From a virus: DNA of 27,799 nucleotides. Below are positions 8,451 to 25,176 of this stretch, piece after piece (the first letter of the stretch is position 1; each line of letters starts with the position of its first letter). The translations under genes were made by a program, and so were the position numbers. The notes beneath the pieces are model-generated. The model saw only the letters and a program-made list of their open reading frames with translations. It was not told the origin of the DNA and searched no databases. The stretch is from IMG/VR virus record IMGVR_UViG_3300012954_000054, positions 1 to 27,799 of that record; one strand, 5' to 3'.

Positions 8451-8719
8451 ACTTGAGAGATAAAATGATAGGTGCTTTGGAAAACCACGCTAAAGCAAAC
8501 ATAGAGAAACACAAAATGAACGTTGAAGTATTCTTAGAGAATGCTGTTGGAGTAGGTGAGCATTCTTCTGTTATGGAGTCTATTGAAACACAACTGGGTA
8601 TGATTGAGAAGTATGAAGGTCAGCTAGAAATTTTAGCAAAACACTTTCCGAAATCTTACAATGGTGCTTTGTTGTGTGAATGTGAAGAAAACAATGAAAC
8701 TTGCCAGTGTGACTCTTAA
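8447..8719 (+). CDS. Conserved-looking hypothetical protein
   Basis: A 90-aa mainly helical protein. It begins NLRDKMIGALENHAKANIEK and continues with HKMNVEVFLENAVGVGEH, then a helix (MESIETQLGMIEKYEGQLEIL). The C-terminus carries four Cys (CECEENNETCQC), a possible metal site. I recall hypothetical proteins with the same HAKxxIxKHKMNVEV...GVGEH pattern in marine phages; no function is known. It is translationally coupled to hsp20 and is the last gene before the regulatory gap. Confidence 0.7.
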   Translation: MNLRDKMIGALENHAKANIEKHKMNVEVFLENAVGVGEHSSVMESIETQLGMIEKYEGQLEILAKHFPKSYNGALLCECEENNETCQCDS

Positions 8720-8746
8720 AAAGTTGCAAGGATTATTCAAAAATAA

Positions 8747-8764
8747 ATACCTGACGTTTAAGAA
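8747..8764 (+). promoter_or_regulatory. Repeated 18-bp motif, copy 2 (candidate phage promoter)
   Basis: ATACCTGACGTTTAAGAA, one base different from copies 1 and 3. It lies in the gap before the packaging and structural genes. Flanking bases can pair as GCAAG/CTTGC and TATTC/GAATA (8726-8738 with 8762-8774, with a 3x3 internal loop). Confidence 0.6.
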
Positions 8765-8783
8765 TAAAACTTGCTAGGCTCTG

Positions 8784-8894
8784 CCAAAGTGATACTCTGG
8801 ACTCTCTTACTGGTACTTGAAAAGAGATGTTCCGTATGCCCCCCGATAGTACCCTCCCCCCAAATAATCGGGGGGTTATTAAGTATCACTTTGG
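8784..8894. repeat. Nested inverted repeats: three-way-junction-like element
   Basis: A perfect 13-bp inverted repeat, CCAAAGTGATACT (8784-8796) with AGTATCACTTTGG (8882-8894), encloses two further hairpins: TCTCTT/AAGAGA (8803-8808 with 8822-8827) and CCCCCCGAT/ATCGGGGGG (8839-8847 with 8867-8875). Three stems in 111 nt, in a region with no gene, suggest a structured RNA or a protein-recognised DNA site. Confidence 0.75.
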
Positions 8895-8910
8895 TATCCT
8901 TAGTGTAGTT

Positions 8911-8940
8911 ATAATTTATTGTTATTAATTAATAAATTAT
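8911..8940. repeat. AT-only 10-bp palindrome
   Basis: ATAATTTATT (8911-8920) and AATAAATTAT (8931-8940) are perfect inverted repeats around a 10-nt spacer. A TATAAT box (8910-8915) overlaps the left arm. The surrounding 100 nt are almost pure A/T. It may be an operator, a -10 element or a DNA-unwinding region. Confidence 0.4.
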
Positions 8941-9034
8941 TTAATGTTTTCATATAGTTATTTATTATTTTTATTAATTATTTGAAAACTATTAAAAAAA
9001 TTTTGAATTGAAAAAGAATCTAAAAGGAAAGATA

Positions 9035-9397
9035 ATGGCAAATCCTCATCCGACTAAACCTCAGATGGGCGGTCGCAGAGAAGGTGCTGGACGTCCTAAA
9101 GGATCTAAGAACATTAATTCTATGGCTTCTGTAAAGAAACTTGAAGAGTTAGGTTTTGATCCCATTGAGATGATGGTTCAAAAATATAATGAGATACAAG
9201 AAAAGTTAGCTGATGGAACTGTTAAAGATGGTTCTGGAGCACAAGCCCAGTTAATAGCGACACAAGGCACATTAATAAATAACTTAATGGCTTATGGCTA
9301 TAAGAGAATCCCTGATAAAATTGAGCAAGAGGTTACTGAAAAGAAACCTATCTCAATACTACTCACTGATAATAAAAAGGAAGAAGACAATGAGTGA
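9035..9397 (+). CDS. Probable terminase small subunit
   Basis: A 120-aa protein that begins with the GGRREGAGRPKGSKN segment (residues about 12-26), which I know from the DNA-binding N-termini of many phage small terminases. After it comes a helical region (VKKLEELGFDPIEMMVQKYNEI ... LIATQGTLINNLMAYGY) and a charged tail. Small terminases recognise the packaging site and load the large terminase, which lies 1.8 kb downstream. I chose ATG 9035, preceded by AAAAGGAAAG, over the in-frame TTG at 9008. Confidence is moderate because the N-terminal motif also occurs in other phage proteins. Confidence 0.7.
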   Translation: MANPHPTKPQMGGRREGAGRPKGSKNINSMASVKKLEELGFDPIEMMVQKYNEIQEKLADGTVKDGSGAQAQLIATQGTLINNLMAYGYKRIPDKIEQEVTEKKPISILLTDNKKEEDNE

Positions 9398-9656
9398 TCA
9401 GGATTCATGGCATCTCTCTAAGAGTGTGCCAGTAACATTTATTGTTGCTATTATATTTCAGACAGCAGCTTTAGTATGGTATGTATCAACACTAGACAGT
9501 GCTATTAAACAAAACCAAAAAGATATTCTACGTAATGAGACTAGACTAGATACGGTAGAACGTATTGTACAAAATCAAGCAGTAACACTTGGTCGTATGG
9601 ATGAAAATATCAAAGCCATTAGAGAAAATGTAGAAAAAATGGCAAGGGATAAGTAG
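9390..9656 (+). CDS. Membrane protein with coiled coil, holin-like
   Basis: An 88-aa protein: a short polar N-terminus (SDQDSWHLSKSVP), one TM helix (residues about 14-33, VTFIVAIIFQTAALVWYVST), then a predicted coiled coil with regular polar heptads (KQNQKDILRNETRLDTVERI). This resembles the short one-TM lysis or holin-like proteins of marine phages placed near terminase genes. No endolysin is seen beside it, so the lysis role is inferred. A GGAAGAAG site precedes ATG 9390, which overlaps the small terminase gene by 8 nt. Confidence 0.6.
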   Translation: MSDQDSWHLSKSVPVTFIVAIIFQTAALVWYVSTLDSAIKQNQKDILRNETRLDTVERIVQNQAVTLGRMDENIKAIRENVEKMARDK

Positions 9657-9660
9657 TCAC

Positions 9661-10137
9661 ATGGATCCTGTAAGCTGCGTGATGATGGCCACTGGAGCAT
9701 TTAAAGCCGTTAAGAGTGCTATAGGTGCAGGTAGAGATATCCAAGACATGACTTCACAATTAGCTACTTGGGGTAAAGCCTTTAGTGATTTTACTAATTT
9801 AGAAGAACGTCAAAAGAATCCTCCTTGGTGGAAGAAGACTTTCAAAGGCAGTGATGAAGAAACAGCCATAGAAATCTTCGCTCAGAAAAAGAAGATGGAG
9901 CAGATGCGAGAAGAGATTAAAGATCACATCTCATGGAATTATGGTCCATCCGCGTGGAAAGAAGTATTACAGATCGAAGCGAGAATGAGAAAAGCTCGTA
10001 AAGATGAGCTTTACAGAAAACAAGAAATGATAGACAACGCTATTAATATGGCAATAGGTATAGTTATATTTGCTGTTGGCGCTGCTGTATTATTGTTTGT
10101 CTTTTGGTTAATAGGTAAAAGCCAAGGAAGATGGTAA
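9661..10137 (+). CDS. Hypothetical phage protein with C-terminal TM
   Basis: A 158-aa protein. The N-terminus (MDPVSCVMMATGAFKAVKSA) has alternating small and hydrophobic residues and looks like an amphipathic, membrane-active helix. A central charged helical region contains ETAIEIFAQKKKMEQMREEI and DHISWNYGPSAWKEVLQIEA. One TM helix lies at residues about 127-150. I recall similar 'DPI/VS...' proteins in marine phages near lysis or packaging genes. The function is unknown; a lysis or internal virion role is possible. Confidence 0.65.
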   Translation: MDPVSCVMMATGAFKAVKSAIGAGRDIQDMTSQLATWGKAFSDFTNLEERQKNPPWWKKTFKGSDEETAIEIFAQKKKMEQMREEIKDHISWNYGPSAWKEVLQIEARMRKARKDELYRKQEMIDNAINMAIGIVIFAVGAAVLLFVFWLIGKSQGRW

Positions 10138-10289
10138 AGAAAAAGAAATCTAAAAATAAAGTATTTATGTTAAGACAAAAATATAACTATGTTATTTATG
10201 ATAATGACGGTTATATTATTATAATAAGTCGTAATAAAAGAATCGCTATAGATTATGCGAAAGGAAAATATAATGGCAGCAGGGGTTAA
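10131..10289 (+). CDS. Small basic hypothetical peptide
   Basis: A 52-aa ORF starting in the last codons of the upstream gene, with GGAAG just before it. The N-terminus is basic (MVKKKKSKNK) and the rest is Tyr/Ile-rich (YNYVIYDNDGYIIIIS), looking like a short beta-hairpin. The end overlaps the next gene by 17 nt. No family is recognised; it fills an otherwise empty 130-nt gap. Confidence 0.45.
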   Translation: MVKKKKSKNKVFMLRQKYNYVIYDNDGYIIIISRNKRIAIDYAKGKYNGSRG

Positions 10290-10452
10290 ACATTATAAAA
10301 GAAATGGTACTCTATTCACAGGTAAAATGCACAGAATGCCTGATGGATCTTTACATTCAGGTGCTAAACATAACAGTAAAAGTGTAAAGCTGTATCATTA
10401 TAAAGAATTAAGTAAAACAGCAAAGGCTAAAGCCTTAAAATCAATGAAATAA
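10273..10452 (+). CDS. Small conserved phage peptide (VKHYKRNGTLF type)
   Basis: A 59-aa basic peptide, MAAGVKHYKRNGTLFTGKMH followed by RMPDGSLHSGAKH and a KELSKTAKAKALKSMK tail. I recall this histidine/lysine-rich pattern (VKHYxxxGxxxxGxxHxxPxGxxHxG) as a common small ORF near phage terminase genes. The function is unknown. The ATG at 10273, with AAAGGAAAATATA upstream, fits better than the in-frame ATG at 10255. Confidence 0.65.
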   Translation: MAAGVKHYKRNGTLFTGKMHRMPDGSLHSGAKHNSKSVKLYHYKELSKTAKAKALKSMK

Positions 10453-10464
10453 AGGAGACTTTAT

Positions 10465-10587
10465 ATGCCTATGGGGAAAGGTACTTATGGTAGCAAAATG
10501 GGAAGACCCCCCAAAAAGAAAAAGAAAGCACCAATGAGTAATAAAGACAAAATGGCTAAACTTAGAGCAATGAAAAGGAAAAAGTAA
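10465..10587 (+). CDS. Tiny basic peptide (MPMGKGTYG type)
   Basis: A 40-aa peptide starting MPMGKGTYGSKMGRPPKKKK. The MPMGKGTYGSKxGRPPKKK opening is a recurrent small phage ORF in my memory. It is mostly Lys, Met and Gly, so it is probably disordered and nucleic-acid binding, but no function is established. The ribosome site AAAGGAGA is strong. The stop overlaps the start of a 13-aa ORF. Confidence 0.65.
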   Translation: MPMGKGTYGSKMGRPPKKKKKAPMSNKDKMAKLRAMKRKK

Positions 10588-10628
10588 TGGGATACGGCAA
10601 GAAAAAAGGTGGCGGTAAAAAGAAGTAA
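10587..10628 (+). CDS. Candidate 13-aa peptide
   Basis: MGYGKKKGGGKKK, starting on the last base of the previous stop (TAATG) with AAAAGGAAAAAG just upstream, and ending immediately before the ATG at 10629. The exact packing between two genes and the good ribosome site favour translation. It could also be a spacer that couples the flanking genes. Confidence 0.4.
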   Translation: MGYGKKKGGGKKK

Positions 10629-10805
10629 ATGTGGACTCTAGTATTTATATGGCTATATAATGGAGAGCCTGAAATACGAAAAGTAGGCGTATTTGACAAT
10701 ATGTATAGTTGTTTTCAAGAGTATGACAATTTATATAATGCTATGATGCCAGAACAAAGACAAGGCATCAGACTAACTTGTATAGAAGGAGACACTAATG
10801 GGTAG
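10629..10805 (+). CDS. Two-cysteine small protein family, member 4
   Basis: A 58-aa protein, MWTLVFIWLYNGEPEIRKVG, then FDNMYSCFQEY with Cys28 and LTCIEGD with Cys51. The hydrophobic strand, central Cys and late Cys match the members at 4541, 4954 and 5834. This copy sits with the packaging genes, about 5 kb from the others, so the family is spread across two modules. The end overlaps the next gene by 8 nt. Function is unknown. Confidence 0.65.
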   Translation: MWTLVFIWLYNGEPEIRKVGVFDNMYSCFQEYDNLYNAMMPEQRQGIRLTCIEGDTNG

Positions 10806-11181
10806 ATCTAATCCTAAATTATGGGAGTCTGCAAAGAAGGCTGCTGTAAGACGTATGGGCGGTAGACACTCTGCTAGAGCTATGCAGTTAGCAGCTAAGA
10901 TATATAAAGAACGTGGCGGTAAATATACAGGTGGAAAAACCAAAGCACAGAAGTCTATGACCAAGTGGACTAAGCAAGATTGGGGTACTAAAAGTGGTAA
11001 GAATAGTGTTCATGGTAAAGATGCTACTGGTGAGCGTTATCTTCCTAAAAGAGATCGTGAGAAACTTACCAAAGCACAGTATGCCGCCACAACTAGAAAA
11101 AAGCGAAGTGATCTTAAGAAGGGTAAGCAATTCTCCCAACAACCCAAAAAGGTCAAGAAAAAACTAGGTCGTAAAAGATAA
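10798..11181 (+). CDS. Basic phage protein of the DUF5872-like type
   Basis: A 127-aa lysine-rich protein. It begins GRSNPKLWESAKKAAVRRMG, then has RHSARAMQLAAKIYKERGGKY, a central KWTKQDWGTKSGK, then ATGERYLPKRDREKLTKAQY and AATTRKKRSDLKKGKQFSQQP. This order matches, from memory, a conserved protein often next to phage terminases (W-x-x-x-x-W-G-T-x-S-G-K and GERYLPK motifs), annotated as a domain of unknown function (DUF5872-like). The function is unknown; packaging or DNA-associated roles fit the place and charge. GAAGGAGA precedes the start. It lies 1 nt before the terminase gene. Confidence 0.75.
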   Translation: MGRSNPKLWESAKKAAVRRMGGRHSARAMQLAAKIYKERGGKYTGGKTKAQKSMTKWTKQDWGTKSGKNSVHGKDATGERYLPKRDREKLTKAQYAATTRKKRSDLKKGKQFSQQPKKVKKKLGRKR

Positions 11182-11182
11182 A

Positions 11183-12514
11183 ATGTCAGATATACAGTTA
11201 CATGAAAAACAGTCAGAAGTTATTAGAGACTTATTTGTTGAAGATAATTGTCGTTACGCTGTTGTTAATGCTAGCCGAGGCTTTGGAAAGTCTTACCTTG
11301 CAGCAACAGCCGCTATAATAGCTGTACAAGAATTAATGAATCTAGATGAGTCAGTGCCTAATAAAAATGTGGCACTCATCGCCCCTACTTACAGCCAAGC
11401 AGTAGATATTTATTATCCACTGATAGCTTGGCAACTAGGGATGGAAGGCTTTGCAGATAAAGCTTCCAAGGCAGCAGGTCAATTCTGGTTTCCTAATAAC
11501 GTACAACTTAAGCTATGGTCTTATGAAGCGTCTCTTAGAATGCGTGGTACAGGTCAATACTTTGTAGTAGCCGATGAGGTTACTTCGTGGAAAGGCGCAG
11601 GGATGAATCTCAAAGAATCTTGGGAATCAATTATACAACCTTGTGTAGCTACTAGGTGGTCACCTATGAATGCTAAAAAGTTTAATGCCAACTCTGGTAG
11701 AGCACTAATTATTAGTACTCCTAGAGGCTATGACTATTTTTATGAAATGTACAACAGACAAGATTATGACAAAGATTGGAAGAGTTATACCTATACATAT
11801 AGAGATTCTCCTCTTTTAGATGAAGAAGAGATTGATCAAATAAAACTAACACTTGATCCTTTAAAGTTTGCCAGAGAGTATATTGCAAGCTTCGAAGACT
11901 CTGGTAGCAATGTGTTCTACACATTTAACCGTAAGGATCATATTGACCAAAACTTAATTAAGTTTGAAGATGGTGAAGATGTTCATGTAGCTATTGACTT
12001 TAACGTTGGTATAATGGCTAGTGTTATCTTTGCTATTAGAGGTGGTCAGATACATATATTAGATGAAATGCAAGGTCATCCTGATACTGAATCTTTAGCA
12101 AAGGCATTAACTGATAAATATCAAGGACATAGGATAATCAGTTATCCAGACCCTTCAGGTAGAGCTAGAAAAACTTCTGCTGCTGTAGGTGTTACAGACT
12201 TTCGTATACTAGAAACACACAAAATAATCACTAGAGCACATAGTAAAGCACCTCCTATAATTGATAGTGTAGCTGCTGTAAACAAAAAGTTTAAAAATGC
12301 TAACGGTGATATTGATATGTTAATTCATCCTAAATGTGTAAACACAATCAAATCGATTGAAAGAACTCAATGGTTAGAATCAAATCCTGATTCAGCTACA
12401 ATAGATAAAAAAGAAGGAATAGAACACTGGACAGATGCCTTACGGTACGCTGTTGAATATCTATATCCTATCCGAGCAGGCTCAAAAGTAACAACTAGAG
12501 GTTTCGGATTTTAA
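11183..12514 (+). CDS. Terminase large subunit (packaging ATPase-nuclease)
   Basis: A 443-aa motor that cuts the replicated concatemer and pumps DNA into the prohead. The N-terminal ATPase has a Walker A variant, SRGFGKSY at 31-38, Walker B with catalytic acid FVVADE at 127-132, and the coupling segment LIISTPRG at 175-182. The C-terminal RNase H-like nuclease shows VAIDFNVG (Asp272), ILDEM (Asp294/Glu295), YPDPSG (Asp323) and HWTDALRYAVEY near residue 415. Length is normal for the family. In most tailed phages portal and capsid genes follow; here two basic proteins and tail-fibre genes follow instead. The ribosome site is weak, suggesting coupling to the upstream gene. Confidence 0.93.
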   Translation: MSDIQLHEKQSEVIRDLFVEDNCRYAVVNASRGFGKSYLAATAAIIAVQELMNLDESVPNKNVALIAPTYSQAVDIYYPLIAWQLGMEGFADKASKAAGQFWFPNNVQLKLWSYEASLRMRGTGQYFVVADEVTSWKGAGMNLKESWESIIQPCVATRWSPMNAKKFNANSGRALIISTPRGYDYFYEMYNRQDYDKDWKSYTYTYRDSPLLDEEEIDQIKLTLDPLKFAREYIASFEDSGSNVFYTFNRKDHIDQNLIKFEDGEDVHVAIDFNVGIMASVIFAIRGGQIHILDEMQGHPDTESLAKALTDKYQGHRIISYPDPSGRARKTSAAVGVTDFRILETHKIITRAHSKAPPIIDSVAAVNKKFKNANGDIDMLIHPKCVNTIKSIERTQWLESNPDSATIDKKEGIEHWTDALRYAVEYLYPIRAGSKVTTRGFGF

Positions 12515-12528
12515 AGGAGAATTAAATA

Positions 12529-13374
12529 ATGGCACTAAAAAGAAAAGTAAGCAGACGACTTAAAGGCGCAGGGATGCAAATCCGTTCACGCTTTAAGCGT
12601 GCAAAAGCTTCAGCAAGTAAATTTAATTTTACTTCTGCTCGTAAAATGGCACTTAAAAAGGCACAAGAAGCTTCTGCAAAGGCTCGTAGGTTAAGCACTA
12701 ACAAAAGCGCAAGAACTTTAGCGGTTAAAGGCGCAAAAATGAAAATTCGCTCTAAATTTAAACAGAGCAAGGCAGGTCAAGCAACTATTAAAGCAACTTC
12801 ATCAGCAAGAAAAACAATTAAAGCTAAGACTAAAGGCATTAATAGAGCTTCTATAACTGCTAAAGCTAGAGGATTACAGTTTCAAGCTCTTGGTATGGCA
12901 CAACAAACCAGAAAGAAAGCAGCTACCAGAGTAACAACTTTTAGAACTAATATGAAAGCAAGAAGAATAGGTCAAACAAGTAGAAACTTTGCACCTGTAA
13001 ATGGTGCTCAAGCTAAATTTAATAAAAGATCAACTAGTAAATTTAGTAATCGTAAGTTACAAGGAGGAATGGCTAGTACTTCTAAAGCTTTTTCAAATCC
13101 AAGAAGATATAATGTTGGTAAAGCTAAAAATAATCCAACTTCTCAATTACAAGTAATGGGTGCAACTAAAAACAGAGCACAAACTGCTAATATGCAAAGA
13201 AGTCTTGTAAGTGCAGGTATGACTACTTTAGGTGGCACTAAGCAAGGAGCTAGTAAAAACAACGCTTATAGATCTCCAATTTTAGAAGGTGTTAGACAAA
13301 ATCTTATGTATGGCGGTAAATTTCAATCTAGAATTCTAGAAAGAGCTAGGAAAGCTTATACTGGATATAAATAA
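12529..13374 (+). CDS. Lysine/arginine-rich repetitive protein 1
   Basis: A 281-aa, extremely basic protein made mostly of K, R, A, S and T; no family is recognised. It holds an internal duplication: LKGAGMQIRSRFKRAKA (about residue 11) and VKGAKMKIRSKFKQSKA (about residue 66). The rest resembles histone-H1-like low-complexity sequence. The C-terminal quarter (from about residue 220) is less biased and may be folded. Possible roles are internal virion protein or DNA condensation; both are inference. AAAGGAGAATTAAATA precedes the start. A second basic protein follows 11 nt later. Confidence 0.7.
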   Translation: MALKRKVSRRLKGAGMQIRSRFKRAKASASKFNFTSARKMALKKAQEASAKARRLSTNKSARTLAVKGAKMKIRSKFKQSKAGQATIKATSSARKTIKAKTKGINRASITAKARGLQFQALGMAQQTRKKAATRVTTFRTNMKARRIGQTSRNFAPVNGAQAKFNKRSTSKFSNRKLQGGMASTSKAFSNPRRYNVGKAKNNPTSQLQVMGATKNRAQTANMQRSLVSAGMTTLGGTKQGASKNNAYRSPILEGVRQNLMYGGKFQSRILERARKAYTGYK

Positions 13375-13385
13375 GGATTAAGCTA

Positions 13386-14039
13386 ATGGCTATAAAAAAA
13401 TATCTTGGGAAAAAAGCATTAAAGTTTGGTAAAAAACTTTTTGGTAAGAAAGCTAGAAGTGCTGCACAAAAACGTGCTTTAGCAAAAGCTGTTAAAATTA
13501 GTGCAATGAGAAGGTCTAAAAATAAAGTAGCTAAAACTACTATTGGATTTTTTAAACCTAAAAAGGTTGTTACTAAAACTAGTTTTAAAGTTGCAAAAGC
13601 GGTTAAATATAAAGGTGGTAAAAAAGTATCTAAAGCTGCTGCTGCCAAGTTAGCTCAAAAACAATTAGCAAAACAAAGCATTGATAATATAGATACAGCA
13701 ATGAGTTTTGGAGATAAAGCTAGATTAACCTTAGCAGGTACATATTTAGCAGGTGCTGGAGCTTTTTATGTTGGAAATAAAATAGAAAATGCAAGATTTA
13801 GAAAAAGGCTAAGAGCTTATAAAAATGAGGTTATTACAGAAAGAAACGCCAGAATAGATAAGCGTAGAAATAGAACTGCACCTCCTCAACTTTCTCCTGA
13901 ATTAGAACTAAATGCTCAAAAACAAAAAATACAAAATGAAACTGAAAAGTACTTAAGAGAGATGAGGCGTAAGCTAGAACAAGAAAAGAGAAACGCTAAA
14001 AATAGTATAATTCAAAATCGAAAAACAGGAACAATATAA
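13386..14039 (+). CDS. Basic protein 2 with one TM segment
   Basis: A 217-aa protein. Residues 1-95 are lysine-rich and repetitive (KKYLGKKALKFGKKLFGKKA). A TM or amphipathic stretch lies at about 112-130 (LTLAGTYLAGAGAFYVGN). Residues about 135-210 form a highly charged, probably coiled-coil region (KQKIQNETEKYLREMRRKLE). The combination of a basic head, a membrane helix and a coiled coil is like some ejected internal virion proteins, but this is inference. The stop overlaps the next start (TAATG). Confidence 0.65.
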   Translation: MAIKKYLGKKALKFGKKLFGKKARSAAQKRALAKAVKISAMRRSKNKVAKTTIGFFKPKKVVTKTSFKVAKAVKYKGGKKVSKAAAAKLAQKQLAKQSIDNIDTAMSFGDKARLTLAGTYLAGAGAFYVGNKIENARFRKRLRAYKNEVITERNARIDKRRNRTAPPQLSPELELNAQKQKIQNETEKYLREMRRKLEQEKRNAKNSIIQNRKTGTI

Positions 14040-14665
14040 TGGCAAGAAGTCGTATAATTAAACCTGACGTTAATGATCTCATTACAGACGCAGGTAGTGT
14101 GCTATTTTCTTTAGTTAAAGGAGAACAGCTAGAATTCCCTGTTACCTTAAATTTTGTTGAAGATGCTACAAATAATTATACGTTTGAAGCTGCTGTGGTT
14201 GAAGCAGCAAATACTTCAACACAAACAGGACTTTTAAATGCTGATACACAAACTTATGATAGACCTACATCTATCGAACCTAATGGCGCTAAAACAAGTT
14301 TAGCTGTTCGAGTTCCTACAAACAGAGGAACATGGCAAGACGTACAAGCTTACAATAGAGAAGAAATTGTATTATATAACTCAGTATACTATAAGCTATT
14401 AGAAGGCGCAGCAAGAGTCAATTCAACAACTCCTGATCAAGACCCTCTTTGGGCAGTAACAGCATTAAATAAAATTTATGTTCAATTTCCTGATACATTA
14501 GCAAATGATTATGCATTAACCCCTTCTGTATCTTCACCTGTATATGGTTTCTTTGAGCTTCGTGTAACAGAACCAACAGATTCTATTTATAGCAGAACTT
14601 GGAAACCAATTAGAGGAATGGTTGAATTTTTGTTTAGTCCTACAGATATTACTCCTGACAATTAA
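14039..14665 (+). CDS. Virion protein with a CBM5/12-like segment
   Basis: A 208-aa, beta-rich protein. The N-terminal part (FSLVKGEQLEFPVTLNF ... YTFEAAVVEAANT) looks like a beta-sandwich. Residues about 100-141 (TWQDVQAYNREEIVLYNSVY, then PDQDPLW) follow the W...Y...V-x-Y...Y...P...W pattern of CBM5/12 carbohydrate-binding repeats, the same pattern repeated six times in the 969-aa fibre. The C-terminus (YSRTWKPIRGMVEFLFSPTD) completes the beta region. Probably a tail or fibre component. A 15/18 match to the repeated promoter-like motif lies at 14060-14077, inside the gene. Confidence 0.65.
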   Translation: MARSRIIKPDVNDLITDAGSVLFSLVKGEQLEFPVTLNFVEDATNNYTFEAAVVEAANTSTQTGLLNADTQTYDRPTSIEPNGAKTSLAVRVPTNRGTWQDVQAYNREEIVLYNSVYYKLLEGAARVNSTTPDQDPLWAVTALNKIYVQFPDTLANDYALTPSVSSPVYGFFELRVTEPTDSIYSRTWKPIRGMVEFLFSPTDITPDN

Positions 14666-14675
14666 GTGAGGTAAA

Positions 14676-15653
14676 ATGGCTAATAAGAAAACAACTTTTA
14701 CAATTAATTCAAAAGAAGTCTCTAGTAGTGGAACTACTGATAAAGAGATAACAACAACAGTAACAACGCCTAATATACAATCTAATAGAGACAATATTGT
14801 ATTAGAAGTTGATTTAGCTAATCTTGGAGAACATAGACAACCTGATAATACTCGTTTTATATTTGAGCCTGAAATTCTTAATCTTCCAGAGCATCAAGTA
14901 TTTAATGTTGATAAAATTAGCTTAGACATTTCTAGTGCTAAAGATTTAATACAAAATATTAGTAGTATTCCAAAATTTGAAATACTTGAAACACCTGACT
15001 TTGTAGAACTTTTACCAAATAAAGGTGTTCCCAATACAGTCGATCTTACAGAATTTGTAGAACAGACTATTAGAAAAGTTAATTTAGATATTTCTACTGC
15101 TAATGATACAGATGAAAAATTAATAGAATCAGATAAGTTTGACGAAGTTGCAACTCCTGAGTTAGTAGAAAAAGTTTTATTTAAGTCTATATTTGATACT
15201 ATAGGCACAACAGATGACTTCTTTGGAAGTGCAGATCCAGATGATGATCAAACAGCACATGTTCGAGATAGCAACTTTGATATTAGTGGTGTAACAGATT
15301 TTAGTTATAGAAATATATTTAAATCAATAGTTGATACCGTTAAAATGGTAGAAGATTTTGAAGCCGAAGATGGTACAACAAAAGATTTTACTTCTATACT
15401 AGATATATTTGCAGCGCATATGTCAAGACCTAGAGAAGATACATCTTCAACAACCGACTTTGCAGTATTTAATACCAACTTAGGAAAACCACACACTGCA
15501 ACAACAAACGATATTCTTTCAACCGTGATCACATTCTTTAGAGATTATGTAGACACTGCTACTGCTGCAGATAGTGGCAGATTTAATTTACATAATTATA
15601 CTTTACAAGAATATATGTTGGAAGATTATACTGGTACAAATACATTCGTATAA
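14676..15653 (+). CDS. Repetitive acidic virion protein
   Basis: A 325-aa protein rich in D, T, S and F. Several loosely repeated units of about 30-45 residues share an F-K-S-I-x-D-T-(I/V) element followed by acidic positions and TDF or DFF (for example residues about 170-190 and 212-232). The end (RFNLHNYTLQEYMLEDYTGT) is aromatic. I recall similar repeat proteins in the tail-fibre regions of marine phages. It is probably a fibrous virion protein. TGAGGTAAA precedes the start. Confidence 0.65.
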   Translation: MANKKTTFTINSKEVSSSGTTDKEITTTVTTPNIQSNRDNIVLEVDLANLGEHRQPDNTRFIFEPEILNLPEHQVFNVDKISLDISSAKDLIQNISSIPKFEILETPDFVELLPNKGVPNTVDLTEFVEQTIRKVNLDISTANDTDEKLIESDKFDEVATPELVEKVLFKSIFDTIGTTDDFFGSADPDDDQTAHVRDSNFDISGVTDFSYRNIFKSIVDTVKMVEDFEAEDGTTKDFTSILDIFAAHMSRPREDTSSTTDFAVFNTNLGKPHTATTNDILSTVITFFRDYVDTATAADSGRFNLHNYTLQEYMLEDYTGTNTFV

Positions 15654-15665
15654 AGGATCCTTAAT

Positions 15666-16121
15666 ATGATTAACGATAAACTAGCGATGAAAGGTAATGT
15701 TACTTTTATCTTATCATCCCCTGATAAAGAAGATCAGGTAGTAGAAATTAAAAACTTAGTTGTTTCTACAGGTCTTGCTTTTATTGCAAGCCGTATGAAA
15801 GATACAACAAATGATGTAATGTCTCACATGGCAATTGGCGCAGGAACTACTGCTGCCGCAGGTGCAGACACAGCTTTAGGTAGTGAGTTAGCTCGTGTAG
15901 CTCTTACCTCAACAACTATTGTTACTACCACAGTAACAGATGACGCAATACAGTACGTTGCTACTTTCCTTCCTGGAGTTGGAACAGGCGCAGTAACAGA
16001 AGCAGGTACATTTAATGACGCTTCTGCAGGTACTATGCTTTGTCGTACAGTATTTCCTGTGATTAACAAAGGTCAATATGATACTTTGACAGTTACTTGG
16101 AAAATCACTATTGAACCATAA
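15666..16121 (+). CDS. Tail-fibre-type structural protein
   Basis: A 151-aa beta-rich protein with the pattern VKNLVVSTGLAFIASRMK, then MSHMAIGAGTTAA and a C-terminal DTLTVTWKITI strand. The 'N-L-V-(V/T)-x-T-G...I-A-S-R-M...M-A-(I/V)-G-(A/S)-G-T' layout is one I know from phage tail-associated proteins. It may be a fibre or collar component. AAAGGATCC gives the ribosome site. The exact role is unknown. Confidence 0.7.
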   Translation: MINDKLAMKGNVTFILSSPDKEDQVVEIKNLVVSTGLAFIASRMKDTTNDVMSHMAIGAGTTAAAGADTALGSELARVALTSTTIVTTTVTDDAIQYVATFLPGVGTGAVTEAGTFNDASAGTMLCRTVFPVINKGQYDTLTVTWKITIEP

Positions 16122-16133
16122 TAGGAGGGTACT

Positions 16134-16310
16134 ATGACAGCTAGTCTTACTTTAAGACAAGAAGGTAGCAGCCCTAAAGGAACTCCACTTACAAATAAAG
16201 AAGTTGACGATAACTTCATAGCATTAAATGCTGACGCTGAAAGAATAGAACAATCTATTCCAGTTATTGCTAATGAAGAAGCTTTAATTCTATCAATAGC
16301 GTTAGGATAA
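16134..16310 (+). CDS. Small fibre-type protein with PLTNKEVDDNF motif
   Basis: A 58-aa protein: TASLTLRQEGSSPKGTPLTN leading to KEVDDNFIALNADAERIEQS. The P-L-T-x-x-E-V-D-x-N-F-x-x-L motif is frequent at the N-terminus of phage tail fibres, where it attaches the fibre. Here it stands alone, with a short helical tail. A strong AGGAGGG site precedes the start. It may be a small attachment protein or a detached fibre N-terminus. Confidence 0.6.
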   Translation: MTASLTLRQEGSSPKGTPLTNKEVDDNFIALNADAERIEQSIPVIANEEALILSIALG

Positions 16311-16314
16311 TGTC

Positions 16315-16983
16315 ATGGCAACTAGTTTTATAAATAAAGCTTCTAAAGAAGTTGGAACAACGCCTGTTGCAATGTATTCTACTCCTTCAAATAGTAAATC
16401 TATTCTTATAGGAGCAAATATTGCTAATGTAACAGGTTCAACAGTACCTTTTGATATTTATGTAACTAAAACCCCTGCAACTACTACAACTACTTATACA
16501 GTAACGGCTGCAGGTGGTAAATATTATATTGATGGAGTTATAAATCCTACTTTGACTTTTATTAAAGGTCATACATATATATTTGATCTAAGCGATAGTT
16601 CTAATGCAACTCATCCTCTAAGATTTTCTACTACTTCAGATGGAATACATGGAGGTGGAGTTGAGTATACTACAGGAGTAACTGTAACTGGAACACAAGG
16701 ACAAGCTGGAGCTAAAGTAACTATTGTTGTAGATAGTAATGCTCCTAGTACTTTATATTACTATTGTGTAAATCATAGTGGAATGGGCAATTCAATAACA
16801 GTAAATAATGTTACTTATACTGATTATTATGTAGTTAAATACTATAGAGTTGAAACAGGAAACAACGTTGAAATTATGAAAGGCAATAAACTTGTATTAG
16901 ATAATAATGATGTTGTTTATGTTAAATCTCAAGTTAATAATAGTATTGATGTAGTTCTTTCAATTCTTAGTGGGGTAACATAA
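16315..16983 (+). CDS. Virion protein with an inserted cupredoxin-like domain
   Basis: A 222-aa protein. Residues 1-52 (SFINKASKEVGTTPVAMYST ... VPFDIYVTK) and about 170-222 (DYYVVKYYRVETGNNVEIMK ... VVLSILSGVT) together look like a normal small phage structural protein, split in the middle. The insert, residues about 56-165, resembles a cupredoxin (blue-copper) fold and keeps a full type-1 set of candidate ligands: His100 in ATHPLRFS and Cys151, His154, Met157 in YYYCVNHSGMGNS. A similar insert, about 70% identical, is in the gene at 24334. Copper binding is unproven. The stop overlaps the next start. Confidence 0.7.
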   Translation: MATSFINKASKEVGTTPVAMYSTPSNSKSILIGANIANVTGSTVPFDIYVTKTPATTTTTYTVTAAGGKYYIDGVINPTLTFIKGHTYIFDLSDSSNATHPLRFSTTSDGIHGGGVEYTTGVTVTGTQGQAGAKVTIVVDSNAPSTLYYYCVNHSGMGNSITVNNVTYTDYYVVKYYRVETGNNVEIMKGNKLVLDNNDVVYVKSQVNNSIDVVLSILSGVT

Positions 16984-17294: not shown

Positions 17295-20204
17295 ATGCCA
17301 CAATTAATAGATCTAGGCAAGTTACGATTTTACTTCGCAGGGGAATGGAGTTCATCTACAACCTATGAAGTAAATGACATCGTTAAATACGGTGGTAACA
17401 TTTATGTTTATACTTATGGATTAAAAACAAGTTCAAACCTTCCAACTGACACAACATATTGGCAGTTAATGATTGAAGGTATAAAATTTGAAGGTGTATA
17501 TGATAATACAGCTTCTTATCAAATTGGTGATGGTGTTTCACATGGTGGTAAAGTTTATGTTGCCATTGCAGACACAGTAGGTAATACACCTCCTAATGCA
17601 ACTTATTGGTCACAATTTGCAGACGGTATTCAATGGGAAGACGTCTATAATAATACAACAGCTTATCAAAAGAATGACGTAGTTACTTATGGTGGATCAG
17701 CTTATATTGCTTTACAAGATACTACAGGTAACTTACCTTCTGATACTACTTTTTGGCAAAAATTTGTTGAAGGTATTGATTATAAAGCTGTATACAATAA
17801 TACAACTGCCTATGTTGAAGGCGATATTGTTGCTTATGGTGGTGGTTTATATAAAGCACTTGGTGATACAACTGGAAATTTACCTACAGACACAACTAAA
17901 TGGGTTGTATTTCAAACAGGAATAAATCCAAAAGGTGATTGGTCTACTTTAACAGAATATTTTCCTGACGATGTAGTGACTTATGGAGGTAATACTTATA
18001 AAGCATTACTTGCTCATTCTTCAGGTACTTTTTCTGCTGATTTAGGTGCAACCCCTCCTAAATGGATAAAATTTAATGGTGGTGTTCGCTACAGAGGCGA
18101 ATGGCAAACTTCTTCTTACTATTTAGTAGATGATATTGTTAAAGACGGTATTTCAAGCTATATTTGTTTAGAAGACCACCAAGGAGGTACTTTTGCAACA
18201 GATTTGGCTGCTAATAAATGGGAATTCTTTGCAAGAGGCGCGGCTGACGTTCTTCCTGTTCTTACCGCAACAGATACTGGTAAATCTTTAACAGTTGCAG
18301 CAGACGGTATTAATTATCAATGGATTGGTGCTACCAATTCAAATAACGTATTTTATGTTGCACCACATGGTACAGACGCAACAAATTCAGGTAAATCAAT
18401 GGCTACGCCATTTCTTACTATTAAATATGCCTGTGCTACAGCTCCAGCAGATTCAGTAATTTTTGTTAAAAATGGTACTTATACAGAGCAATTGCCTATT
18501 ACTGTAAAAGATACTCAAGCAGTTATTGGTGATTCACAACGTAGCGTTATTGTTCAACCTGCTTCAGGTAATTCTGATGACGGTTCAACACCAAACAACG
18601 AAGCAACTATGTTTCTATTAAGTAATGGGTCTCTTCTAAAAGGTATGACTTTTAGTGGAATGACTGGTTGGACTGCTGCAGCTTCACCAAATCAAGACAA
18701 TATTGCATCTTCAACACCTAAAGGTATTTGTGTTGGGCTTAATCCTGTTGGTTCAATAACAACAAAATCACCGTATGTAATGGAATGCTCTGCTATTGGT
18801 AGTGGTTGCATTGGTGCTTATGTAAACGGTAATGCTCATTCAAGTGGTAATAGAAGTATGTTATTTCATGCTTATACTGTTATTGCAGACAATGGTGTTG
18901 GCTTTTGGATTGCTAACGGAGCTAAAGCAGAAATTGTTTCTTGTTTTACTTATTATGCATATTTTGGTTATGCAGCTGATCATGGCGCTCAAATACGTGC
19001 GCTTAATGGTAACAACTCTTATGGTACTTGGGGCGCAGTCTCAGTAGGTTTTGATCAAAATGAAACACCACTAACAGGTGCAGTTAAAGGTTCAAGGCTT
19101 CATCTTGATAATTTTCAAACTGCTTCTTTTCAAGTAGGAGAAACATTAACAGGAGGTACTTCTAGTGCAACTGCTGTTGTTACTAACGTTCAACAAGCTG
19201 CAGGTTACGTATATGTAAAAGATGTAACTGGAACATTTCAAGTTAATGAACAAGTTACAGGCGGCACTTCTGGTGGAACTGCTGATGTTGATAGTAATGC
19301 TATTGAAGATCAAAAAGGTTTTGTTATTGTAGCTGATGGGTTTTCAGATCCACCTCAACCTGGACGTAGTATACAGTTTACAGGCGACACTATTGCTTAT
19401 GTTATTCAAAGTGTTTCTGGTACTTATGCTGATGCAACTAGTGAAATGATATTAGTTCTTGCACAAGAGAAAACAACAGGTTCTGCTGATAATACAGCTA
19501 TTACAATACGTAAAGGCTTTTCACAAATCAGGCTAACAGGACATGATTTCTTAAGCATTGGTACAGGTGGTGTTACTACTACTAACTATCCTGGAATTCC
19601 AACTCAAGCTGCTGCACAAGGTAATGAAGTTCAAGAAAACTTCCCTGCTAGAGTCTATTATATTTCAACAGACCAAGACGGTAATTTCCGTGTAGGTGAA
19701 TATTTTAGAATCGAACAGGCTACAGGTAAAGCAACACTTAATGCTAGTGCCTTTGATTTAGCAGGTCTAACTTCACTTAGACTTGGATCTATTGGTGCTC
19801 AATTAGGTGAACAAATTAATGAGTTTTCTTCTGATACAAGTTTATCAGGGAATTCTAATACAGCAGTACCAACTGAAAATGCAGTTAAAACTTATGTAGA
19901 CGCTGAAGTAATAGCAGGTGCAGAAAAGCAAACTGTTGTTGCAGTTAGTGGTGCTACAACTTTAACTTTAGGAAAAGTATTTGCCGTAGATGGTGCTCAT
20001 ACACTTACCCTCCCTGCCAGTGCAACAGCAGGTGATACAATTAAAATCGTAGATGTTTCTGGGGCAGCAAGCACAGCAAACATTACAGTTGCACGAAACA
20101 GTCACAATATTGCAGGTGCAGCAATTGATCTTACCATAGATGTAAACAATGCTGGAATTGAACTTGTATATATAAATTCAACTTATGGATGGGGAGTATT
20201 ATAA
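17295..20204 (+). CDS. Large tail fibre with CBM5/12-like repeats and beta-helix
   Basis: A 969-aa protein, probably the main receptor-binding fibre. Residues about 14-320 hold six tandem CBM5/12-like units (GEWSSSTTYEVNDIVKYGG, W/Y...D-I/V-V...Y...W pattern, about 45 residues each). After a linker, from about 352, the pattern VFYVAPHGTDATNSGKSMAT is the usual start of a DUF1565-type right-handed beta-helix (NGTYTEQLPITV and following turns), seen in phage fibres and depolymerases. Residues about 610-680 carry two GETLTGGTSSATA / NEQVTGGTSGGTA repeats. The end has AVPTENAVKTYVDAEV and a beta-rich tip (ITVARNSHNIAGA). AAGGAAGTAAAAAA precedes the start. Confidence 0.85.
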   Translation: MPQLIDLGKLRFYFAGEWSSSTTYEVNDIVKYGGNIYVYTYGLKTSSNLPTDTTYWQLMIEGIKFEGVYDNTASYQIGDGVSHGGKVYVAIADTVGNTPPNATYWSQFADGIQWEDVYNNTTAYQKNDVVTYGGSAYIALQDTTGNLPSDTTFWQKFVEGIDYKAVYNNTTAYVEGDIVAYGGGLYKALGDTTGNLPTDTTKWVVFQTGINPKGDWSTLTEYFPDDVVTYGGNTYKALLAHSSGTFSADLGATPPKWIKFNGGVRYRGEWQTSSYYLVDDIVKDGISSYICLEDHQGGTFATDLAANKWEFFARGAADVLPVLTATDTGKSLTVAADGINYQWIGATNSNNVFYVAPHGTDATNSGKSMATPFLTIKYACATAPADSVIFVKNGTYTEQLPITVKDTQAVIGDSQRSVIVQPASGNSDDGSTPNNEATMFLLSNGSLLKGMTFSGMTGWTAAASPNQDNIASSTPKGICVGLNPVGSITTKSPYVMECSAIGSGCIGAYVNGNAHSSGNRSMLFHAYTVIADNGVGFWIANGAKAEIVSCFTYYAYFGYAADHGAQIRALNGNNSYGTWGAVSVGFDQNETPLTGAVKGSRLHLDNFQTASFQVGETLTGGTSSATAVVTNVQQAAGYVYVKDVTGTFQVNEQVTGGTSGGTADVDSNAIEDQKGFVIVADGFSDPPQPGRSIQFTGDTIAYVIQSVSGTYADATSEMILVLAQEKTTGSADNTAITIRKGFSQIRLTGHDFLSIGTGGVTTTNYPGIPTQAAAQGNEVQENFPARVYYISTDQDGNFRVGEYFRIEQATGKATLNASAFDLAGLTSLRLGSIGAQLGEQINEFSSDTSLSGNSNTAVPTENAVKTYVDAEVIAGAEKQTVVAVSGATTLTLGKVFAVDGAHTLTLPASATAGDTIKIVDVSGAASTANITVARNSHNIAGAAIDLTIDVNNAGIELVYINSTYGWGVL

Positions 20205-21962: not shown

Positions 21963-22496
21963 ATGGCACTTAGAGATCATATAAAAGAAAATCATGATCT
22001 TGCTGAAAAGCACCCCTTTGTAAAACTTTTGTTTTCGGGGGGTGTTTCCTCAAAAATTTACGCTGAGTATTTATTTAATCAATATTTAATGTATAATGTG
22101 TTAGAGAAAATTGCTTTAGAAAAAGGTTTATTAAAAGGTGTAGAAGACGTAATAAGAGCAGAATTAATATTAAAAGATTTTATAGAGTTAAAAGAAACAG
22201 ATATTAAAGTTCATGGTTGTTCGTTAGACTACATTAAATATATACAGACAAGAGTATCTAAAGAAAATTTAATGGCACATATTTATGTACGACACTTTGG
22301 AGATTTATTTGGTGGACAAATGATGAAAAAAGTTGTTGTAGGTTCTGGTAAGATGTATGATTTTAAAAATAGATCAAAACTTATTCAAGAGCTAAGAAGT
22401 CGATTAGATGATAATTTAGCAGAAGAAGCTAATAACGTAATGTTATGGGCAATTAATTTATTTATGAGTATAGCAGATGAGCATGATATTCGATAA
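21963..22496 (+). CDS. ho1: Heme oxygenase (biliverdin-forming)
   Basis: A 177-aa enzyme expected to open heme to biliverdin IXa, CO and iron, using reduced ferredoxin. The likely proximal ligand is His11 in KENHDLAEKHPFVK, aligning by eye with the His of the E-x-H-x-x-A-E pattern of HO-1. The distal-helix signature is GDLFGGQMMKK (residues about 117-127), with Phe where GDLSGGQ is usual. It is shorter than cyanobacterial HO-1 (about 240 aa), as in phage copies. The start follows a GAAGAATAATAA stretch. The next gene starts inside it (20-nt overlap) and would use its product, so the two form a pathway. Confidence 0.9.
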   Translation: MALRDHIKENHDLAEKHPFVKLLFSGGVSSKIYAEYLFNQYLMYNVLEKIALEKGLLKGVEDVIRAELILKDFIELKETDIKVHGCSLDYIKYIQTRVSKENLMAHIYVRHFGDLFGGQMMKKVVVGSGKMYDFKNRSKLIQELRSRLDDNLAEEANNVMLWAINLFMSIADEHDIR

Positions 22497-23127
22497 CTTA
22501 GAAAAAATTCATTATGATATTTTGGAAATATTTTCCAAATATAAAGAAGTAAAAGAAGAACATTCTTTTTCTTGGCCTAACTATATATACTCAGATAAAA
22601 AATTTAGAAGAGCACATTTGGATATAGTTGATGCAAGAAACACAAAAAATCTTTATATGTTACATCTTTGCGTATTTCCGCATATTAACGATCCTGCCCC
22701 GATATTTGGATTTGACATTATCGCAGGACCAAAAAAAGTAACAGGAGCTTTTCATGACTTTAGCCCTGTTGGAAGAAATCATTGGTTATTAGACTGGTTT
22801 AAAGATAGTACTAAAAAGTTTAAAGCAAGTAAAGAAAGAGAATTACCTGATTGGGCAAAAGCTATTTTTAGTGGAAATATGATTGCAGCAGGTAATGTTA
22901 GATCTGAAGAAGAGCTTTCTGAAATATTAAAAATGGTTACAACTAATCTTGAATTTTATTTAAATAATATAGGAGAGACTGGTGACGCTACTTTTAAAAT
23001 GAAACAAAATTTTTATTGCGAAAAACAAAAAGAAAACCCTCATACTCCAAAAGTAATGACCTCTCTTGGTTTAGATCCTGAAGAAGTCCGTTTCTTCATA
23101 CAAGAAGGGTTATTCCCAGAAATATAA
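22477..23127 (+). CDS. pcyX: Ferredoxin-dependent bilin reductase (PcyX/PebS-like)
   Basis: A 216-aa enzyme that should reduce biliverdin IXa to a phycobilin with electrons from ferredoxin. Family marks: AHLDIV (46-51), MLHLCVFP with His63 (61-68), PIFGFDII with Asp80 (75-82), KVTGAFHDFSPV (87-98), LPDWAKAIFS (123-132) and the NFYCEKQKENPHTPKVM end. The position matching PcyA Glu76 appears to be Asp49. PcyA keeps Glu, while PebA/PebS/PcyX-type enzymes differ there, so a phycoerythrobilin-type product is more likely than phycocyanobilin. That, and the choice PcyX over PebS, rests on memory and eye alignment. It could start at ATG 22477 or 22483. It is coupled to the heme oxygenase. Confidence 0.85.
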   Translation: MSMIFDNLEKIHYDILEIFSKYKEVKEEHSFSWPNYIYSDKKFRRAHLDIVDARNTKNLYMLHLCVFPHINDPAPIFGFDIIAGPKKVTGAFHDFSPVGRNHWLLDWFKDSTKKFKASKERELPDWAKAIFSGNMIAAGNVRSEEELSEILKMVTTNLEFYLNNIGETGDATFKMKQNFYCEKQKENPHTPKVMTSLGLDPEEVRFFIQEGLFPEI

Positions 23128-24333: not shown

Positions 24334-25176
24334 ATGAAGAAATATCAATTTGAAGGGTATGATATTATTGCACCTCTCAGTATTGCTTCAAACGAACCAA
24401 TGTTTGATTCAGATTCAATTTCACTTAAAAAACAAAGATCTTCACAGGGTGTTCAACGTTGGGAGCTTTCTTTTGGAATAGTAACAAGTGATCCATCAAC
24501 ACTTTTATCATCTATTGTTGATTTTGATACTGTAAAAACAATGACAATGCCACAATTAAATGATGTTAATAATAGAGTTGGAACTACTACAGGAAGTTCT
24601 CCAACAACTACAACTTATACAGTAACCGCAGCAGGTGGTAAGTTTTATATTGATGGTGTTCAAAATCCTACATTAAGCTTTACTGAAGGTAATACATATG
24701 TATTTGATCAAAGTGATAGTTCAAATGGAGCACACCCATTAAGATTTTCTACTAACGCTAATGGATCTCCAACTTATTCAACAGGAGTAACTGTAAATGG
24801 CACACAAGGTCAATCGGGATCTAATACTACCATTGTTGTTGCTACTGGCGCTCCCTCTACTTTATATTACTATTGTACTAATCACGCTAACATGGGTAAC
24901 TCTATAACGGTTAGTGCAGCTTCTGGAACTACTATTAATTATCCAAAAGGTGCTTTTGTAACAGGAAGTGATAATAAAGTTTATATGATTAAAACTGATG
25001 CAAGTTCAGTTGTAGATTCAAATCTTTATCCAACACCTCCATCTGGATTAACTTATTCAACAGTTGATAACGCTACAATTAGATATTATCGTAGCATTGA
25101 TAATCTTAAAGGAATAACTTTTTCTGATGGTTTAATAGCAAATCCTGGAACTGTAAATATTATTGAGGCTTTGTAA
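24334..25176 (+). CDS. Tail protein with an inserted cupredoxin-like domain
   Basis: A 280-aa protein. Residues 1-83 (KKYQFEGYDIIAPLSIASNE, then SSQGVQRWELSFGIV) and about 200-280 (INYPKGAFVTGSDNKVYMIK ... RYYRSIDNLKGITFSDG) look like one tail protein interrupted by an insert. The insert, about 90-195, matches the cupredoxin-like insert of the protein at 16315, with His134 (AHPLRFS) and Cys181, His184, Met187 (YYYCTNHANMGNS). The place before the DUF2163-like gene suggests a DUF2460-like or similar tail-tip role, but the flanks are not firmly recognised. AAGGAG precedes the start. Confidence 0.7.
   Translation: MKKYQFEGYDIIAPLSIASNEPMFDSDSISLKKQRSSQGVQRWELSFGIVTSDPSTLLSSIVDFDTVKTMTMPQLNDVNNRVGTTTGSSPTTTTYTVTAAGGKFYIDGVQNPTLSFTEGNTYVFDQSDSSNGAHPLRFSTNANGSPTYSTGVTVNGTQGQSGSNTTIVVATGAPSTLYYYCTNHANMGNSITVSAASGTTINYPKGAFVTGSDNKVYMIKTDASSVVDSNLYPTPPSGLTYSTVDNATIRYYRSIDNLKGITFSDGLIANPGTVNIIEAL

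Follow-up and report, generated by a model that had tools for sequence, protein, structure and literature searches.

A heme oxygenase and PcyX-type bilin reductase gene pair in a Naomviridae-like phage, predicted to lead from heme to phycoerythrobilin

The virus record IMGVR_UViG_3300012954_000054 of IMG/VR, all 27,799 bases of which were analysed here and are referred to as the window, contains a heme oxygenase (HO) gene that overlaps a gene for a ferredoxin-dependent bilin reductase (FDBR). We consider it very likely that the two genes form an auxiliary metabolic cassette of a Naomviridae-like phage, the host of which is probably a non-photosynthetic marine alphaproteobacterium, that this cassette would lead from heme to phycoerythrobilin, and that its bilin step is under selection. 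Cassettes of this type have already been published for non-cyanobacterial phages (PMC11480375, PMC7892664), and the purpose for which phages of non-photosynthetic bacteria would make a light-harvesting pigment has been called "still enigmatic" (PMC11480375). The HO-PcyX cassette is known from pelagimyophages; what appears to be new is its Naomviridae-like carrier, for which we found no earlier report. This would extend the cassette to a lineage for which the nearest named relatives are phages of culturable Roseobacter-group bacteria; for this reason, there may be a phage-host system that is tractable.

The overlapping gene pair and its predicted enzymes

The HO gene (positions 21963..22496, + strand) encodes 177 amino acids, and the reductase gene (22477..23127, + strand) encodes 216. 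In a Pfam scan of the window proteins both were matched above the curated cut-offs, the former by Heme_oxygenase (1.2e-15) and the latter by Fe_bilin_red (4e-18). According to the ORF coordinates, the end of the HO gene and the start of the reductase gene share 20 nt (22477..22496, + strand), and translational coupling is probable; the overlap of about 20 nt between an HO-like and a bilin reductase-like reading frame, as reported in the preliminary description, is thus confirmed on the same strand. The pair is located between tail-fibre-type genes and phoH. Two close relatives of the window (IMG/VR contigs L003/G001 and L004/G002) have the same arrangement and retain both genes intact at the same position. 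In comparison with close relatives, dN/dS values of 0.13-0.17 for the reductase gene and 0.23 for the HO gene indicate purifying selection and, therefore, that both genes are maintained. The gene pair is real, and chance is excluded as its origin.

The view that the HO and reductase genes no longer have a function and are decaying as cargo could draw on the downstream phoH gene, the frame of which is broken in the window contig (23137..23559, + strand, with the remainder in another frame to about 23819). However, this break amounts to a one-base gap relative to the intact phoH copies in the two close relatives, and it may be an assembly error or genuine. In addition, the catalytic residues of both enzymes are all kept, and neither the dN/dS values nor the intact pairs in the two relatives are in line with decay, which we regard as exceedingly improbable.

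The AlphaFold models of the two proteins were built from alignments of related phage loci. For the HO, the model had a pLDDT of 96.7, and its Foldseek matches were solved heme oxygenases. The protein has the traits of the HO-1 type (PF01126), namely a proximal histidine, a distal GDxxGG helix and the all-helical HO fold. The proximal heme ligand, His11 (21993..21995, + strand), was located by alignment with the NH/SH..AE motif of Synechocystis HO1, and every one of the 80 phage HOs with a residue at this position has histidine. Asp114 of the distal-helix motif GDLFGGQ (residues 113-119; 22299..22319, + strand) is invariant in 83/83 phage HOs. It had been pointed out beforehand that GDLFGGQ replaces GDLSGGQ, the form of the motif in many HOs, and the substitution itself is evident from the alignment of the two motifs. 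Any special meaning is contradicted by the distribution of residues at the Phe position in the 83 cassette HOs (Tyr in 47, Phe in 18, Ala in 9, Ser in 7, His in 1 and Asn in 1). As this position is freely variable, we rejected the motif as a functional novelty. The window HO is predicted to open heme to biliverdin IX-alpha.

The reductase scored 66.3 bits against PF05996 (cut-off 31). Its AlphaFold model (pLDDT 94.2) matches solved FDBRs, and all of the top structural matches belong to this family. The best PDB sequence match was PcyX_EBK42635 (5OWG; E 6.4e-65), with PcyA next (1.8e-13). Superposition of the model on 5OWG gave a Z of 23.6 and an rmsd of 1.1 A over 168 residues with 46% identity, and most PcyA entries gave an rmsd of 2.4-2.5 A. 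In a tree of 97 FDBRs, the reductases of the window, 5OWG and the Pelagibacter phage Mosig EXVC030M (MT647606) formed a PcyX clade with 82 other phage-type sequences (SH-aLRT 99), outside of which fell PcyA and the PebS/PebA/PebB/HY2 group; the retrieval of PcyX-like sequences by PcyX-like patterns favours such a tidy clade, and the tree was built without the alphaproteobacterial PcyA (AX clade). The preliminary description had named two placements that would speak against its PcyX assignment, inside PcyA or outside the FDBR family, and neither occurred in this tree.

The FDBR alignment places His63 (22663..22665, + strand) and Asp80 (22714..22716, + strand) of the window reductase at PcyA His88 and Asp105, respectively. 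Asp49 (22621..22623, + strand) is placed by the FDBR and 5OWG alignments at PcyA Glu76 and PcyX Asp55, the latter number being that of the 5OWG chain minus an assumed 8-residue tag; an aspartate at the Glu76 position had been noticed previously and is here confirmed as Asp49. In the Glu76 column, Asp occurs in 90 of the 100 aligned rows, and the six PcyA rows all have Glu. The His88 column holds His in 96/100 rows, with Asn in PebS, PebA and PebB and Asp in HY2, and 99/100 rows have Asp in the Asp105 column. The window reductase does not have the PcyA trait Glu76, and it differs from PebS in having His63 instead of Asn and in belonging to a separate branch. With PcyX it shares the clade of 5OWG and Mosig, the Asp49/His63/Asp80 pattern and an adjoining HO gene. 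Tree, residues, structure and operon partner bear out the proposed PcyX type, and the assignment of the window reductase to PcyX can be regarded as supported. By likeness to the characterised PcyX, its product would be phycoerythrobilin. Ledermann et al. (2018) reportedly found that the PcyX Asp is not itself catalytic, and that an Asp to Glu swap did not convert PcyX to PcyA. We therefore view Asp49 as a marker of the clade and not as a proof of the product. One jumbo-phage PcyX homologue (L008:9905-10594) has Asn at the Asp55/Glu76 position, being the only phage PcyX-type sequence aligned with this residue, and its product may differ.

A PcyA function of the window reductase, with phycocyanobilin as the product, seems unlikely to us. 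It is true that the best NCBIfam match of the protein is the PcyA model, at a sub-threshold score, and that the CB_2 reductase, encoded beside hemO in a freshwater phage, was expected to be a PcyX and yet made phycocyanobilin (PMC11480375). The activity of CB_2 was, however, attributed to the absence of PcyX Asp55 (PMC11480375), and the window reductase has this residue. Furthermore, Glu76 was reported to be a PcyA-specific residue that PcyX does not have and that is needed to reduce the 18-vinyl group (PMC10151467), and both the tree and the PDB similarity group the window reductase with PcyX.

Carrier phage, host and spread of the cassette

Sequence similarities suggest that the carrier is a Naomviridae-like phage with its nearest relatives among the Roseobacter phages. 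The window protein scan identified a terminase large subunit (11183..12514, + strand) with 66% identity to that of the Ruegeria DSS-3 phage DSS3_PM1 (Naomviridae), and the primase and class II RNR of the window are 55% and 59% identical, respectively, to those of Roseobacter phage CRP-7. Terminase, phoH, small tail genes and the J protein come in this order in both the window and DSS3_PM1. The terminase, primase, phoH and J genes are homologous and collinear, but J is only 30% identical, the RNR class differs, and the window genome is incomplete. The presence of DUF1127 and the GC content of 33% fit an alphaproteobacterial host without proving it, and we consider the host to be probably alphaproteobacterial. 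The view expressed in the preliminary description that the host is non-cyanobacterial is supported indirectly by the Roseobacter-phage-like terminase, primase and RNR, by DUF1127, and by the finding that no window protein matched phycobiliprotein or phytochrome families.

Upstream of the cassette lies a tail fibre gene (17295..20204, + strand; phrog_9851 tail fiber, 3e-220), homologues of which are also found near the cassette in several other phages. Two further ORFs in the structural region (16315-16983 and 24334-25176) have no Pfam match over the cut-off; a repeated domain common to both shows a His...Cys-x-x-His...Met pattern that, by eye, recalls a type I copper site.

A profile scan detected at least 566 IMG/VR contigs that encode a relative, and no relatives of the reductase were found on plasmids. 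HO was present in 83 of the 87 reductase loci analysed and usually overlaps the reductase start. Indeed, HO/FDBR overlap is the rule in related loci, with -20 as the commonest value. Among 80 loci found by their HO, 77 carry the reductase downstream on this strand at a distance of no more than 3 kb, and three have HO without reductase, one of them being cut by the contig end; both locus samples (87 by reductase, 80 by HO) were chosen by similarity to cassette members, and stand-alone HOs of other types may be missed.

The cassette is located near neck and sheath-stabiliser genes in T4-like phages, near phoH in Naomviridae-like phages, and near the phrog_511 internal virion protein in a further group. 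It is also found in podovirus-type phages (fam 16/25; nearest named relatives DSL-LC04 and HTVC023P) and, in jumbo contigs, in the order DnaK-Hsp20-ClpS-HO-reductase. Mapping of these contexts on the reductase tree requires 7 changes, with a minimum of 4. To judge from the tree, this suggests that the cassette moved several times between phage lineages.

The Hsp20 - ClpS - HO - reductase cluster is conserved in jumbo-type contigs, often with DnaK upstream (L008, L064, L065, L068, L072, L073, L077, L080, L086-L088, L090, L092, L095, L097 and others). A species collection of bacterial genomes gave three reductase matches, one of them on a 3.3-kb contig. The other two, PcyX-type genes in metagenome-assembled genomes (MAGs) of a Neomarinimicrobiota (L104) and a Rickettsiales (L106), have the same Hsp20/ClpS neighbours as the jumbo phage contigs and, therefore, are probably phage DNA in MAGs. 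Beyond the probable phage contig of G008, a search of the 385 genomes of its class yielded a pair of divergent FDBR-like genes in one genome and one sub-threshold match.

Proposed function and candidate bilin acceptors

In the mechanism that we propose, HO would cleave heme of the host, which would yield biliverdin IX-alpha together with Fe2+ and CO. With four electrons drawn from host ferredoxin, the PcyX-type reductase, the translation of which is probably coupled to that of HO, would then convert biliverdin via 15,16-dihydrobiliverdin to phycoerythrobilin. This chemistry is carried over by analogy from the characterised PcyX, and the position of the pair would suggest late expression alongside the tail genes. 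The electron donor is presumably host ferredoxin, because neither the window nor any of 33 related contigs was found to encode a ferredoxin. A phage-encoded donor was considered and found only in Mosig among the 35 records.

An alternative view is that the cassette serves mainly in heme salvage, freeing iron from host heme for iron enzymes of the phage or host. The bilin would then be waste, and the reductase would merely drain biliverdin to keep HO turnover going. Iron supply has already been proposed for such cassettes (PMC11480375). In line with this, Mosig has a ferrochelatase gene and several 2OG-Fe(II) oxygenase genes just upstream, and families of this oxygenase are found near about a quarter of the eligible loci (20/74). 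However, there is no nearby 2OG-Fe(II) oxygenase at the window or the jumbo-type loci. Moreover, HO alone would free iron, yet HO hardly ever occurs without the reductase in the 80 loci described above. For this reason we prefer a role of the bilin step over iron release alone. The retention of the pair across unrelated phage lineages, between which it seems to have moved, likewise suggests that selection acts on the whole route from heme to bilin. These findings favour, without being proof of it, selection on the bilin product or on biliverdin removal. The coupling of the two genes would be explained just as simply by a need to drain biliverdin so that HO can continue its turnover, and we judge iron release to be at most a side benefit. 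Heme salvage as the main purpose is, in our view, possible but rather doubtful.

The idea that 2OG-Fe(II) oxygenases always accompany the two cassette genes as a third partner was rejected, since the 20 loci represent a minority of the 74. Where present, such genes can be arranged closely: they lie directly upstream of and overlap pebS in P-SSM2 (L113:560-2097) and pcyA in Sf-CH3 (L111:1-949), and a run of them precedes HO-PcyX in Mosig (L002:10599-15684).

No phytochrome (PHY) was found in the cassette phages, and no phycobiliprotein domain in the window or its near relatives G001 and G002. A phycobiliprotein search of the cassette contigs gave two weak matches, both inside a 2515-aa giant tail-fibre protein (8592-16139) of the cassette-bearing jumbo-type contig IMGVR_UViG_3300032240_001991 (G006, also L123; 326,658 bp). 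This fibre protein scored 30.2 bits with PF00502 (cut-off 22.2). Of its ten CxRD motifs, nine lie in tandemly arranged repeats that are each about 160 aa long. A profile of 26 CxRD-repeat copies from jumbo phages and cyanophages matched C-phycocyanin alpha in the PDB (1.1e-7), and its 60 best PDB matches were all phycobiliproteins or close kin, aligned across the chromophore Cys. The repeat recurs in four jumbo-type contigs that carry the cassette, and copies are also contained in 304 cyanophage records, where they are annotated mainly as tail or structural proteins; none is present in the window, G002, Mosig or DSS3_PM1. Besides some cassette-bearing jumbo phages, many T4-like cyanophages have giant tail-fibre proteins in which such repeats stand in tandem. 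No paper connecting phycobiliproteins with phage fibres was found in the literature searched.

These repeats represent a concrete candidate bilin acceptor in some cassette phages. Should the putative CxRD fibres bind bilin, the cassette would provide the phage particle with a pigment that its hosts do not make themselves. The data do not support a particular association of the repeat with FDBR carriage: 304 cyanophage records contain the repeat, versus 21 phage records with an FDBR match. The Cys of the CxRD motif is kept in most copies, with or without an FDBR in the phage, and therefore the repeats appear to have no special tie to the cassette. We consider it very unlikely that the pigment serves as chromophore in a protein of the phage, perhaps even in one of its virion. 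The window does not contain the repeat but is a fragment, and the bilin acceptor of its phage, if any, could be another protein.

Comparison with known systems

The closest parallel to the gene pair itself is Mosig, in which hemO and pcyX are in the same order, overlap and lie between tail-fibre and other structural genes. Its reductase is 51% and its putative heme oxygenase 34% identical to the window proteins. Unlike the window phage, Mosig is a myophage of the T4-like type; downstream of its cassette lie gp13-type neck genes, and it carries the upstream 2OG-Fe(II) oxygenase and ferrochelatase genes and a ferredoxin gene that the window fragment does not have. In the window, where the backbone is Naomviridae-like, the cassette is followed by phoH.

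The phycoerythrobilin synthase PcyX_EBK42635 shares with the window reductase the fold, the Asp-His-Asp pattern and the clade, but it is only 46% identical over the aligned structure and belongs to the sub-clade of Mosig and not to that of the window. CB_2 resembles the window in combining a phage HO with a PcyA/X reductase and in its proposed alphaproteobacterial host; it differs in its broken cassette and in having alaS nearby (PMC11480375), a gene that was not identified among the window proteins scanned. PebS of cyanophage P-SSM2 is, like the window reductase in its predicted role, a phage enzyme that converts biliverdin to phycoerythrobilin with one polypeptide. In contrast to the window reductase, it belongs to the PebS branch, has Asn for His88 and functions in a cyanobacterial host.

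Lastly, the phages DSS3_PM1 and DSS3_VP1 (Naomviridae) of Ruegeria pomeroyi DSS-3 resemble the window in their terminase (64-66% identity), their primase (50%) and the order terminase - phoH - J-type tail protein. They differ in having a two-subunit RNR, whereas that of the window is class II, and neither of them encodes an HO or a reductase. In DSS3_PM1, phoH directly follows the terminase gene, whereas the two are separated in the window by the cassette and by fibre genes that span about 10 kb.
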